NCBI GenBank assembly: GCA_009694245.1
Contig: SHVO01000001.1
Location: 19,139-83,138, forward strand
Length of the DNA: 64,000 bases
Origin: Rhodospirillaceae bacterium
GTDB taxonomy: Bacteria; Pseudomonadota; Alphaproteobacteria; Rhodospirillales; Rhodospirillaceae
Reading direction: 5' to 3'
How positions within the stretch are numbered: the first letter of the stretch is position 1; every line of letters begins with the position of its first letter. Made by a program: the position numbers and the translations under genes. Shown in pieces: positions 2,347-8,868 of this stretch. A model generated the notes under the pieces. That model made no database searches, was not told where the DNA came from, and saw only the letters and a program-made list of their open reading frames with translations.

Positions 2347-3201
2347 CTACTGACCGCGGGTCGCACTCCAGCTGCCGCCACCCTCGATGCTGCCCTTCAT
2401 GGTGCTGCCTTCTACCCTGCCGGTGTAGCGCTTCCCGGTAACTACGAAGGCAATCTCCGTACCGTTCATCTTGGCGTTGGCGATCGGCATCGGCTTTCCG
2501 GCCATGGTCAGCATACCGTCGAGCGCCTGATAGGTTTGGGTTAGTTTCAACTGACCGCCGCCTGCCATCTGCCAATCGCCGCTGACCTTGGCGGGCACAA
2601 TCCATTTATAGGCCGTGCACCAACTGGTGCAGTCGCCGCCGGCGTCTATGGTTTCATCCGGCATCCAGTCGCCCATGTTGAACGTATTCGAGACCACGCG
2701 CGTATCGGGCTTCATGTTGAGCAAGATTGGACGCAGCCTGATATTCAGCTCCGGCAACAGAAACAAGGTGATGACCGAAGCCTTGGAGAAGTCCGATTGA
2801 AAGATGTCGGCGCGCTCGAAGGTCGCCAGGCCGGAGACACCCTCGGTTTCGGCGTTGCTCTTGGCGAGCGTGACCATGTCCGGATTGTACTCGATGCCCA
2901 GCGCCCGCGTGCCGCGCTTGGCCGCAGTGATTACGGTGCGCCCATCCCCCGAGCCGAGATCGATCAGATAGTCCTGCTTGGCCAGCTGGGCCATATCCAG
3001 CATGCGGTCGACCAGGGCCTGCGGTGTCGGCACCCAGACCACATCCTTCCCGGCTTGCCCGGACTGGGGCGTGAATGGAGCCTTTGCCGCTCCGGCCTTT
3101 TCCGCCGCGGGCGCAGCCTGTGCCGAAAGCGAACCAACCGCTGCACTGTTCATCACAAACGCAGCAACGGCGCATAGAAGCGAAAGTTTTCGCAAGGTCA
3201 T
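2347..3201 (-). CDS. Exported class I SAM-dependent methyltransferase-like protein
   Basis: Signal peptide MTLRKLSLLCAVAAFVMNSAAVGSLSAQA|APAAEK, followed by methyltransferase motif YLIDLGSGDGRTVITAAKRGTRALGIEYNPDMV. Confidence 0.8.
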   Translation of the reverse strand: MTLRKLSLLCAVAAFVMNSAAVGSLSAQAAPAAEKAGAAKAPFTPQSGQAGKDVVWVPTPQALVDRMLDMAQLAKQDYLIDLGSGDGRTVITAAKRGTRALGIEYNPDMVTLAKSNAETEGVSGLATFERADIFQSDFSKASVITLFLLPELNIRLRPILLNMKPDTRVVSNTFNMGDWMPDETIDAGGDCTSWCTAYKWIVPAKVSGDWQMAGGGQLKLTQTYQALDGMLTMAGKPMPIANAKMNGTEIAFVVTGKRYTGRVEGSTMKGSIEGGGSWSATRGQ

Positions 3202-3438
3202 GGGCGCGTCTCCTGAATGGGACAACCGGGCACGGCCGGGATAATAGCGCCTAGTACGCGCGGGCGCGACAGTGCGATTACGCCCGGGGCGGAATAATCG
3301 GAGAAATCCGAAGGTAATCGCTAAAGTTAAATCTGGTTCGAAGAAACCGGACAGGTCATAATTACTTAATGTTTCGCGCTGCCATGGGTCGAACAGGTTG
3401 GGTTGAACAGGTCCACAGGGTTTCCAGGGGAGGATAAC

Positions 3439-4263
3439 TTGAAATACGCAAAATTGATCAAGCGACTAATCGGCGCCTTTGTCGTGGCAGGGATGATGGC
3501 GGGCGTCGGTGCGGCCGGCAGCGCCAACGCGGCGACCGTCCTGATCACCGGCTCGAACCGCGGCCTCGGCTTCGCCTTCGCCAAGTCCTACGCCGAAAAG
3601 GGCTGGACGGTCATCGCCACGACGCGCAATCCGGGCGATGACGCGGACCTGGACGCCCTGGCGGCGAAATATAAAAACGTCGCGATCGAGAAGCTCGACG
3701 TCACCGACGAGGCGGGCATCACGGCGCTGGCCGCCAAATACAAGGGCAAACCGATCGACTTGCTGATTAACAACGCCGCCATCAACGACGCCGCCGGCAA
3801 GGGCGCGGTCCTGGGCGAATTCGACGCAAAGCTTTTCGAGCGCGAGATGCGCACCAACGTCCTCGGCCCTCTGCTTGTGAACCAGGCCTTCCTCGAGAAT
3901 GTCGTGGCCAGCGATATGAAGAAGATCGTCGCCATCACCAGCCCCTCGGCGGTGCTCGGCCGCCCGATGAATAAAGAGACGCGCCGCGCCCATACTTATT
4001 TCTACCGCCCTTCCAAGTCGGCGTTGAACATGGCCATGAAGATTCTAGCCGCTGAGGTGCGCGAGCGCGGCGTGATCGTCGGTATCATCCACCCCGGCGG
4101 CGTCGACACCGAAATGCTGCGCTCGGTCTACGGCGGTAAGCCGACCCCCGGCGCGCAGACGGCGGACCAGAGCGCTGCCGGCATCGTCAAGGTCATCGAG
4201 GGTCTCACCCAGGCCAACAGCGATCAGGTCACGGGCTTTGACGGAAAACCCATCCCCTGGTGA
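3439..4263 (+). CDS. Exported short-chain dehydrogenase/reductase (SDR)
   Basis: TTG start with GGGGAGGA RBS; signal peptide MKYAKLIKRLIGAFVVAGMMAGVGAAGSANA|ATVLITGSNRGLGFAFAK; NNAA motif and YRPSKSALN catalytic motif. Confidence 0.85.
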   Translation: MKYAKLIKRLIGAFVVAGMMAGVGAAGSANAATVLITGSNRGLGFAFAKSYAEKGWTVIATTRNPGDDADLDALAAKYKNVAIEKLDVTDEAGITALAAKYKGKPIDLLINNAAINDAAGKGAVLGEFDAKLFEREMRTNVLGPLLVNQAFLENVVASDMKKIVAITSPSAVLGRPMNKETRRAHTYFYRPSKSALNMAMKILAAEVRERGVIVGIIHPGGVDTEMLRSVYGGKPTPGAQTADQSAAGIVKVIEGLTQANSDQVTGFDGKPIPW

Positions 4264-5206: not shown

Positions 5207-6565
5207 TTATTCGGTTTCCTTTTTCGGGTCCAAATAGATCCCGTCGCGGCGCAGAACGCCGTAGAGATACTCGGCATGGGCGAGGTCGTCGAATACCAGC
5301 CGCGTCATCTCCGGCGTCCGCTCGCCGGCGATGAAGCGGTGAATGGTGTCCGAGATGTATTTCGACCCAGCGATTGCCGCCTGGCCCGCGAAGAACTGTT
5401 GGACCACGAGAATCATAACCGCCGTAACAATTGCCATCTGGACGTTTCTTCGCGCGCCCGCCGCCTGCCAAAATCGCTGCACCAGAGGCAACGCCAGAAA
5501 AAGCAGCCCGGCATGAAGGGGCGCCAGATACACCGAATACCGTACGGGCACCGCCACATAGGGCAGATCATCCACACGGCCGACGGCGGCCAGTACCCCA
5601 GTGGTCAGCGAAAACATGATCAGACCGAGGCTGATCAAGTCGAGACGGCTGATGTGAAACTTGTCGAAAGTGCGCATGACCACCAGCGCGATTCCGGTTG
5701 CGGACAGTGCGGCGCCGATGACCCGCCCGACATCCGCCAGCGCCGCAGCGCGGGTCCAGGGCAGTCCCATATATGTGATGAAATAGTCGCCTACTTTCAG
5801 CAAATGCGCGGCGGTGTAGTAACCGCTGTCCAAATCAACAGCGTGCGAGGCGGATTGGGGAACCGTCAAGCCATTCGCATAAGTCCAGCAGAACAAGACG
5901 CCAAAGCCGAAGACGATCAGCAGCCACCGCAATCCGGTGCGCATGCGCCAGGACATCCAGATAAGTATCGGCCAGACAATCAGTCCCACCAGGCTGCCAA
6001 ACGCAGCGCATACCGCCGCCAGCAGCGCCGCCACGCGCTTCCATCCATGCGATCGGATGTCGGCGCCCGAGCCCGCAAGCAGCACGATCGAAGCAACGGA
6101 AAAGAAAAGCGTGTGAGGGTAAACACCTTCGATCGGGATACTGCAATCCACGACGTTGGCGGTAGTCAGAAACAACATCGTGACGAGCAGTCCGGCCGTT
6201 ATCATCAAATCCCTCGGCAATCCTGCGAATGCGATCTCGCGCCACAGCATCAACGGGATTGCAATTAGGCACGCGGTGTTGAACACGATGAAGGGGTAAA
6301 TGGCGCCGCTGAACAGCCATATATCGGCGGCGGTCAAAAGCCTTGTCCAGATCGGCCGGTGCCACGCGTGCGGCGTCCATAAAAAGCGCAGCCAGTCGCC
6401 GTGTTCCCGCAAATCAAAATAGCGAGTGATAAAGACGATCATGTCCGCAAAGGGTTCGCGGACGATTGTCGATTCCAGGAAATAGAAAAATAGCGAGAAA
6501 TAGATGAGGGAAATGCAGCCAATAACGAGAAGAAATAACCGATCAAGACTTATGTTGTTATTCAT
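5207..6565 (-). CDS. Polytopic integral membrane protein of unknown function (possible GT-C-like)
   Basis: About 450 aa with many hydrophobic helices; acidic/aromatic early loop; 12 bp upstream of the methyltransferase on the same strand. Confidence 0.6.
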   Translation of the reverse strand: MNNNISLDRLFLLVIGCISLIYFSLFFYFLESTIVREPFADMIVFITRYFDLREHGDWLRFLWTPHAWHRPIWTRLLTAADIWLFSGAIYPFIVFNTACLIAIPLMLWREIAFAGLPRDLMITAGLLVTMLFLTTANVVDCSIPIEGVYPHTLFFSVASIVLLAGSGADIRSHGWKRVAALLAAVCAAFGSLVGLIVWPILIWMSWRMRTGLRWLLIVFGFGVLFCWTYANGLTVPQSASHAVDLDSGYYTAAHLLKVGDYFITYMGLPWTRAAALADVGRVIGAALSATGIALVVMRTFDKFHISRLDLISLGLIMFSLTTGVLAAVGRVDDLPYVAVPVRYSVYLAPLHAGLLFLALPLVQRFWQAAGARRNVQMAIVTAVMILVVQQFFAGQAAIAGSKYISDTIHRFIAGERTPEMTRLVFDDLAHAEYLYGVLRRDGIYLDPKKETE

Positions 6566-6704
6566 CCTGACCTGAACCCCATTCTTACCCAACGCCGCAG
6601 ATGCTGAGGCCAAAATGGCACCGGCCCAATAGGCTCGCGGGGATACAGGGAGACCGGTCATGAACGTGGTTCAAATGGAAATCGCGAACCCCGTCGTTGC
6701 GACC

Positions 6705-7198
6705 GGGGATGTCCCGTACTTTGTTGAAATTTGCTCGACGGCATCACTGGTTGAGCAGGCTACACGGCCTTGGCCTGATGCGCCAGCAGGGCCGCCCGCA
6801 GGAGCGGCAGTTGCTTGTGGGCCTTGAGCCGCCGGAAGCCTTTGGCGGCCTCCAGCATGGCGGCGCCGGTCCAGCGGAGCGCCATGTTGGCATCGCGCCA
6901 GCGTTTGACGTTGCGGCAGACCTGCCGGATGGTGCCGTTCATGTTTTCGATGATGTTGGTGCAGGCGAGCGAGCGGCGCAGCCCGGCAGGAAGGTCGAGG
7001 CGGGTGACGGTCAGGATTTCGTCGATGCCTTCCAGGATGCTGCTGGAGACGCCGGGAGCCTCCTGCTCCAGGCGGCGGGCGAGGTTGCGGATCAACCTTT
7101 CCGCCTTCGCCGCGTCGTCCAGTTCCCACGCCTGACGCAGCACCTTGCGGACCGAGGCATGCAGAGGCTTGGGCAGGCGCGCGACGATGTTGCGGGCT
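6705..7198 (-). mobile_element. IS256/Mutator-family transposase remnant (C-terminal part only)
   Basis: Minus translation ARNIVARLPKPLHASVRKVLRQAWELDDAAKAERLIRNLARRLEQEAPGVSSSILEGIDEILTVTRLDLPAGLRRSLACTNIIENMNGTIRQVCRNVKRWRDANMALRW...; homology ends abruptly near 7198. Confidence 0.85.
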
Positions 7199-7199
7199 A

Positions 7200-8320
7200 T
7201 GAAAGAAAACGCGTGGCAAGGTTTTTGGAATGGCGCGGTCCCTCCCTATGGTTACCGCAATTATGCGGCGGAGAAACGGGGTGAGAAGAGCAAGAAGCGG
7301 CTAGAAACTGACCCCAAAGAAGCGGAAATTGTGCGGTAGATGTTCCGCCTTTACGTGAACGGCGATGGCACCATCGCACCTAAAGGTGTGAAGGCAATCG
7401 CCACTCACCTAAACGCAAAAGGCTATCGGCAACGGCAAGGACGCTTATTCAATAATAAGTTCGTGCAGGAAGCGTTGCGCGAGACGGCATACATCGGCAC
7501 TTACTATTTTAATCGGTTTGACAGCAAAACGCGGCAACGCAAACCCGAGAGCGAACGGGTGCCCATGCCCTGCCCGGGCATAGTAGATCAAGCAATCTTC
7601 GACGCTGCGCAGGGCTTGCTGGAGCGACGAAATATTAGAAAGACGGCAGGGCGCAGCGTGAACAATCCAATCCTTTTGAGCGGCATGGTGAAATGCGCTC
7701 ATTGCCGTGGAATCATGAGCCTTCGGACGGGCAAAAGCGGCAAGTGCCGGTATTACGCCTGCCTGAAACAAGCCAAGGAAGGTAAAACGGGCTGCAAGGG
7801 ATGCAGTGTCCCTATGCCAGCATTGGATAACGCGGGTACCGATGCCCTGTGCACTCAAGTATTGAGCCCGGAACGGATGAGCGCTCTTTTTCTCGAAGTC
7901 CAGACTAGCATCGAAAAGAACAATGATACTTCCGCGCAGGACCGCGCCGGATTGACCCGCAAGCTCCAGGAAGCGGACGCCAAACTATCCCGCCTCTACG
8001 ATGCCCTTAAACAAGGGACGGTCGAGCAGGACGACTTTTTCAGGCGCCGGGTCGGCGCTGCGAAGGCCGAGCGAGACGAGATTATAAGGCTACAGGCGCA
8101 GGCCGAGCGCCGCGCTGCCATGCCCACCGCCGTTATCACGCTGAGGAAGCTAGAGGCCTTCTCCAGGGGCATGGAAGACATACTGCGAATCGGGGATATC
8201 CAATTCCGCAAGGCGTAATTGCGCTTCCTGGTCGGTAGCGTTGAGATTATGGACGGCGAAATACGGCTTACAGGTTCGAAAACCGCGCTACTTGCCGCTG
8301 CAAGAGTAGGCTTGCCGGAT
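7200..8320 (+). pseudogene. Large serine recombinase remnant (catalytic N-terminus lost, two in-frame stops)
   Basis: MKENAWQGFWNGAVPPYGYRNYAAEKRG..ETDPKEAEIVR*MFRLYVNGDG..ALRETAYIGTYYFNRFDSKTRQRKPESE..MVKCAHCRGIMSLRTGKSGKCRYYACLKQAKEGKTGCKG..GDIQFRKA*LRFLVGSVEIMDGEIRLTGSKTALLAAA; stops TAG 7337-7339 and TAA 8216-8218 share one frame. Confidence 0.88.
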
Positions 8321-8448
8321 CAAGCTGGCGGAGTGCCCACTTTGGTCCAGGAATGGCGTGCCCACGGGTATTCGAACCCGCGTTACGTCTGTGGGCGGGC
8401 GGCATCTGGGCAGCCGTCGGGTCACGGCGAAGGCGACCCAAAAAAAAT

Positions 8449-8868
8449 TGCGCCAGATGGCCTATAAGCCGGGTTCTGTCCCTGGGCCCCGGATTTGCAT
8501 CCTAAGCCCAATGGATGGCCATTCCTCTGGGATGCGCATCGCTGCGCACCTCGACGCGACCGACCCGGACGACGGTGCGGAAACCCACCTTTCGGCGTAG
8601 CAAAAGCTACCCGAACGGCCGTCCCTATTTGGTCTTGCTCCAGGTGGGGTTTACCCTGCCGCCGCTGTTACCAGCCGCGCGGTGCGCTCTTACCGCACCA
8701 TTTCACCCTTACCGGCACCACCGTTTTACCGGTGGGTCGGCGGTTTGTTTTCTGTGGCACTTTCCCTGGGGTCGCCCCCGCCGGACGTTATCCGGCACCT
8801 TGCTTCCGTGGAGCCCGGACTTTCCTCCCTTTGCCTAAACAAAGAGCAGCCATCCAGCCATCTGGCGC
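8449..8868 (-). ncRNA. rnpB: RNase P RNA (bacterial type A)
   Basis: Minus strand: GCGCCAGATGGC...GGGAGGAAAGTCCGGGCTCC...GGGGGCGACCCCAGGGAAAGTGCCACAGAAA...GGTAAGGGTGAAA...GGACAGAACCCGGCTTATAGGCCATCTGGCGC; P1 strands are complementary; T-run follows. Confidence 0.95.

Follow-up and report, generated by a model that had tools for sequence, protein, structure and literature searches.

Why would two neighbouring genes encode exported enzymes whose cofactors, SAM and NAD(P), are not expected free in the periplasm? The question is raised by a methyltransferase gene (MT) and an SDR gene lying side by side in the window, by which we mean the whole 64,000-nucleotide stretch of Rhodospirillaceae DNA analysed here. 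The genome it comes from is a MAG (1.64 Mb, 77% complete). The two ORFs are divergent (Table 1), and both are coding-like by codon-position GC (0.57/0.49/0.77 for MT and 0.60/0.45/0.84 for SDR). MT most likely starts at the ATG at 3201 rather than at an upstream TTG, and SDR at the TTG at 3439 rather than at 3403; strong Shine-Dalgarno sites precede both chosen starts. With these corrected starts, the shared region of about 240 bp described in an earlier note on this DNA measures 237 bp. That note's description of the two proteins holds. In MT, the Sec-type signal MTLRKLSLLCAVAAFVMNSAAVGSLSAQA stands ahead of motif I (DLGSGDGR). In SDR, the TGxxxGxG motif and the Asn-Ser-Tyr-Lys tetrad that define classical SDRs follow a signal with an AxA site, MKYAKLIKRLIGAFVVAGMMAGVGAAGSANA lying before the predicted cut and ATVLITGSNRGLG after it. 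Neither protein has a twin-arginine motif, as had also been remarked (MT has R4-K5, and SDR has K8-R9 without the consensus). Judging from these signals and motifs, both proteins are very probably exported with their cofactor sites kept.

Table 1. Features of the MT/SDR locus (positions in the window)
Feature	Position	Strand	Evidence
MT, exported aKMT/FAM173-like methyltransferase, 284 aa, ATG start 3201	2347..3201	-	PDB matches 5bxy, 5fa8, 5jwj; AF2 core pLDDT >95
MT signal peptide, about residues 1-29, Sec-type, R4-K5 not twin Arg	3115..3201	-	sequence; recurs in about 160 homologous copies; low pLDDT
MT seven-beta-strand SAM-binding core, residues 45-200; invariant motif I DLGSGDGR, E104, N153	2602..3069	-	alignment
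MT all-beta domain at the C-terminus (residues 203-284), predicted mini-barrel of avidin/lipocalin/Cap15 type; invariant W210, Q222, Q225	2350..2595	-	alignment, AF2, Foldseek
Shine-Dalgarno AGGAG of MT	3210..3214	-	sequence
Divergent intergenic region, 237 bp	3202..3438		sequence
Shine-Dalgarno AGGGGAGG of SDR	3426..3433	+	sequence
SDR, exported classical SDR, 274 aa, TTG start 3439	3439..4263	+	sequence, homologues, tree
SDR signal peptide, residues 1-31, predicted cut between SANA and ATVL	3439..3531	+	sequence, homologues

The earlier note also raised the possibility that MT and SDR act together in one periplasmic pathway, perhaps under shared regulation. Adjacency and divergent orientation speak for it in this window only, and the pair is found nowhere else in 150 genomes of the order, 385 genomes of the class, and 77 named MT loci. 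SDR is absent from the family relatives that have MT (G123 and G149). MT is absent from the congener G080, which has SDR, and from the other genomes with an exported SDR (G349, G440, and G517). No exported-SDR homologue was found in the 77 named MT neighbourhoods. Co-occurrence across genomes, the check that had been suggested for the pair, thus finds that MT and SDR are not kept together in relatives. As for shared regulation, the pairing is not conserved, and a search of the shared region found no sigma-70-like promoter, which is weak evidence. With no co-occurrence and no shared neighbourhood elsewhere, a common pathway was rejected; we consider it almost certainly wrong. Since the link is not conserved, the adjacency is treated as chance. 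By the distribution of their homologues, MT and SDR are two unrelated, individually conserved exported enzymes that became neighbours by chance.

PDB sequence matches (5bxy, 4e-43; 5fa8, 6e-30; 5jwj, 8e-29), profile, and predicted fold agree in placing MT in the archaeal KMT-like group. The profile also reaches DOT1L. A Foldseek search with the confident AF2 model (pLDDT above 95 in the core, 94 in the C-terminal domain, and low in the signal region) finds an aKMT-like fold (TM to target 0.92/0.89). Against NCBIfam NF041081 (archaeal protein-lysine N-methyltransferase), MT scores 95 bits, below the curated cut-off of 200, and is therefore a relative rather than a member of that equivalog. It has the same seven-beta-strand core, motif I, and overall fold (TM to target 0.8-0.9) as aKMT of Sulfolobus islandicus (5fa8, 5fad, 5jwj), Salinibacter 5bxy, and mitochondrial FAM173A/B (ANT-KMT, ATPSc-KMT), which belong to the archaeal KMT-like group (PMC10238732). 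While the known members act in the cytoplasm or mitochondria, and aKMT has only about 160 aa, MT adds a cleavable-type export signal, a C-terminal mini-barrel, and, at the family level, a permease operon. Both motif I and the post-I acidic residue for SAM are in place: D81, G83, G85, D86, G87, and R88 are invariant among 90 exported copies, and E104 and N153 among 56. In the AF2 model the final 80 residues fold into a nine-strand domain, for which no Pfam match was found. In Foldseek this domain resembles avidin, Cap15, and FABP barrels with weak E-values and good TM-scores, as with a streptavidin monomer (TM to query 0.82, E 1.2e-3).

Export is a feature of the MT family. Nearly all of about 160 homologous copies carry a signal peptide, which is of Sec type or, in some, of Tat type (e.g., the Tat motifs in L130, L134, and L181), and their SAM site is invariant. 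Signal-bearing copies span Alpha-, Beta-, and Deltaproteobacteria and Acidobacteria. An AxA-like site is found in 163 copies and a hydrophobic core in 98%, figures that lean upward because the start codons were picked partly by hydrophobicity. Since such picking favours hydrophobic N-termini, the case for export rests on the recurrence of signal-type N-termini in homologues diverged to 40-50% identity, and on annotated starts. For example, the MT of pDG3-1g has an independently annotated start and a signal of the same kind at its N-terminus. In the MT alignment the signal region is variable and motif I is not (mean majority fraction 0.32 versus 0.96). Several exported MT paralogues are found per locus in L077, L103, L091, L094, and L025/L021 (G049), mostly in Betaproteobacteria, with up to five exported MTs in one locus (L077 and L103).

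By gene neighbourhood, the conserved partner of the exported MT is a LAT-type permease, which the earlier note missed. An APC permease recurs among the 77 named MT loci. Of the 51 distinct permeases of this clade, 49 have an exported MT as their immediate neighbour on the same strand, the gene order being one way round in 25 cases and the reverse in 24; of the two exceptions, one permease is near a contig end and the other is convergent. A search of 50 named MT genomes that lack an adjacent permease at their first locus found the permease in 29, 26 of these with an exported MT beside it; note that the named genomes were chosen for having MT, a selection effect on the permease counts. The unbiased evidence of linkage therefore comes from the class survey and from plasmids. 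Among the 385 genomes of the class, MT is found in eight and the permease in eight; seven have both, adjacent in all seven (p 2.7e-13, or 1.1e-11 with the window genome left out). In a set of 72,556 plasmids, MT and permease were found on the same two, where the genes are adjacent, which checks the linkage independently. The plasmid annotations are just "amino acid permease" and "methyltransferase domain-containing protein", and in pDG3-1g the two ORFs overlap. The linkage is found in both MT sub-clades and in near relatives of the window MT (Oceanibaculum and Niveispirillum). No permease adjoins the window MT. In its genome the permease lies outside the window, 21 bp upstream of a second exported MT (L013, contig C35). 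MT genomes of Deltaproteobacteria and Acidobacteria mostly have no clade permease, so it is either dispensable or replaced there. Tripartite-tricarboxylate-type receptors, another frequent neighbour, found at 17 MT loci, were judged unspecific because they are abundant in Betaproteobacteria. A literature search, with subscription literature mostly outside its scope, found no paper on an MT-permease operon or on a periplasmic SAM methyltransferase, an absence that is weak evidence.

Full-length similarity to LATs (2.A.3.8) places the clade permease in the L-type (LAT-type) amino-acid transporter family. TIGR00911 is the best of all models (198 bits, below the curated cut-off of 701.8), and the nearest solved structures in the PDB are y+LAT2, BasC, and LAT1. 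The clade shares with these transporters its length, the whole-length similarity, the GxG of TM1, and the YGGW of TM6. What sets it apart from LATs is an acidic TM6 residue, at position 228 (50 of 50 permeases), W-A-R and G-D-Y sequences around TM3 that are invariant in this clade and specific to it, and an exported MT almost always adjacent. Nor does it keep the TM5 lysine typical of LATs, whose column (176) is mostly E, T, L, or A. Acidic residue 228 is compatible with a cationic substrate, which is a hint only.

Our best explanation of the whole locus combines chance neighbours, a periplasmic MT served by a permease, and a separate exported SDR clade, and we hold it with just under even confidence. 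Its groundwork, namely the export signals, the intact sites, the MT-permease operon, and the separateness of the pair, can be read from the sequences themselves. The exported MT family would probably act in the periplasm on the lysines of envelope proteins; lysine is a fairly probable methyl acceptor, the preference being taken from homology alone. LAT-type permeases, in a two-gene operon with one MT copy, would serve the MT family by exporting SAM and taking back SAH. The permease is proposed as the supplier of SAM because none is expected in the periplasm. LATs exchange amino acids, and both SAM and SAH belong to that class, so SAM/SAH exchange is preferred over transport of the acceptor or product; we rate this substrate pair at somewhat below even odds. 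The MT with its permease is the stronger of the two cases, the other being the SDR clade. In the window genome, the permease beside the second MT on contig C35 would serve both MT copies. A dedicated periplasmic methylation system, in which an exported MT with its own inner-membrane SAM/SAH exchanger methylates proteins outside the cytoplasm and has the FAM173 proteins as distant relatives, is possible and rather doubtful.

The LAT-type permease is an amino-acid permease, and the mini-barrel resembles ligand binders (avidin, FABP, and Cap15). Both would suit a periplasmic small-molecule methyltransferase whose barrel binds a ligand; the permease would then transport either the compound to be methylated or the one that results (a free amino acid or peptide derivative), and SAM would arrive otherwise. 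This is unlikely: the MT core is nearest to protein-lysine methyltransferases, and the supply of SAM is left unexplained. The strict operon linkage could also mean that the permease is the substrate of MT, just as the ADP/ATP exchanger ANT is methylated by mitochondrial FAM173A; inner-membrane proteins are the targets of both FAM173A and FAM173B, which have alphaproteobacterial relatives (PMC10238732). However, no lysine of at least 90% conservation was found in 50 clade permeases, which disfavours such methylation. The permease was rejected as a lysine-methylation target, an idea we regard as improbable. Membrane tethering of MT and SDR by retained signal anchors, or moonlighting as non-catalytic binding proteins, would agree with the expected lack of free SAM and NAD(P) in the periplasm, and one SDR homologue is lipoprotein-like (L164/L168). 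Against this stand good AxA sites and invariant catalytic residues; the predicted SDR cut also leaves a single residue ahead of the first Rossmann strand, so the fold would be under strain if the anchor stayed uncut. We find tethering or moonlighting quite unlikely.

If the preferred reading, a periplasmic MT supplied by its permease, is true, bacteria methylate things outside the cytoplasm, whereas the standard view treats bacterial SAM as a cytoplasmic cofactor. The exported MTs, with invariant SAM sites and a near-obligate permease, make the presence and use of periplasmic SAM directly testable. The clade permease is a candidate bacterial SAM/SAH exchanger, and the exported MT family bears on the origin of the mitochondrial FAM173 methyltransferases.

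The exported SDR clade raises the same periplasmic-cofactor question for NAD(P). SDR belongs to an exported clade of its own among the sniffer/PRK06953-like reductases. N140, S168, Y189, and K193 of the tetrad and T37, G38, G42, and G44 of TGxxxGxG are invariant. The cytosolic PRK06953/PRK08177 and Drosophila sniffer (1sny) have the same classical SDR fold and tetrad, but the window clade carries signal peptides. By one same measure, a signal is found in 22 of 23 members of the exported clade (the start of the one exception falls outside the stretch that was measured) and in none of the 26 nearest cytosolic homologues. In a tree of the mature parts, one branch splits 19 signal-bearing from 26 cytosolic sequences with a support of 100/100. 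The cytosolic relatives start M-P-T-V-L-I-T-G, whereas the exported ones swap the first residues for a signal that ends in AxA directly before ATVL.

The signal is of Sec type in the window genome, of Tat type in L159 and L166, and of a Tat-like lipoprotein type in L164/L168; in another family, the exported relatives have Sec, Tat, and lipoprotein-type signals. Cofactor-loaded export, another suggestion of the earlier note, is plausible for some homologues of both MT and SDR, those with Tat motifs: SDR relatives with a Tat-type signal could carry bound NAD(P) along, and some are probably loaded before export. The window copy, which would be sent by Sec, is not explained that way. Whether SDR is active in the periplasm is evenly balanced. 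Myxococcus CsgA offers an earlier example of an SDR whose action is extracellular. Zymomonas glucose-fructose oxidoreductase, which PMC5936819 cites as Tat-exported with bound NADP, would resemble the window SDR in being a nucleotide-cofactor enzyme at work in the periplasm. It differs in belonging to another fold family and in its Tat-type signal, that of the window SDR being of Sec type.

The window genome has five exported SDR genes, four of them on contig C31. In L012 (3239-11123), a single 11-kb contig carries four exported SDR paralogues alongside a TauD-like dioxygenase and genes of BNR-like and TonB-like type, and no pathway was recognised among these genes. Exported SDRs have no consistent neighbourhood: the loci of G349, G440, and G517 have unrelated neighbours, and only in G080 is the BNR-like gene kept next to SDR as in L012. 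Another SDR, of a different SDR group, has a Tat-like signal (INRRNLLAGAAATSAIIATAGGASAQA) in L070 (6-908).

Elsewhere in the window, 5207-6661 encodes a multi-pass membrane protein with no NCBIfam match. By sequence reading only, 6671-8467 holds fragments that resemble transposases and, at 7340-8218, a serine-recombinase-like ORF. The stretch 1775-2276 contains nested palindromes based on CTGTCYCACTGTCYC, in which two 42-nt arms, 175 nt apart, are 100% complementary. The genome has 12 half-sites and none of a reversed control, and these palindromes look like a REP/palindromic-unit family.
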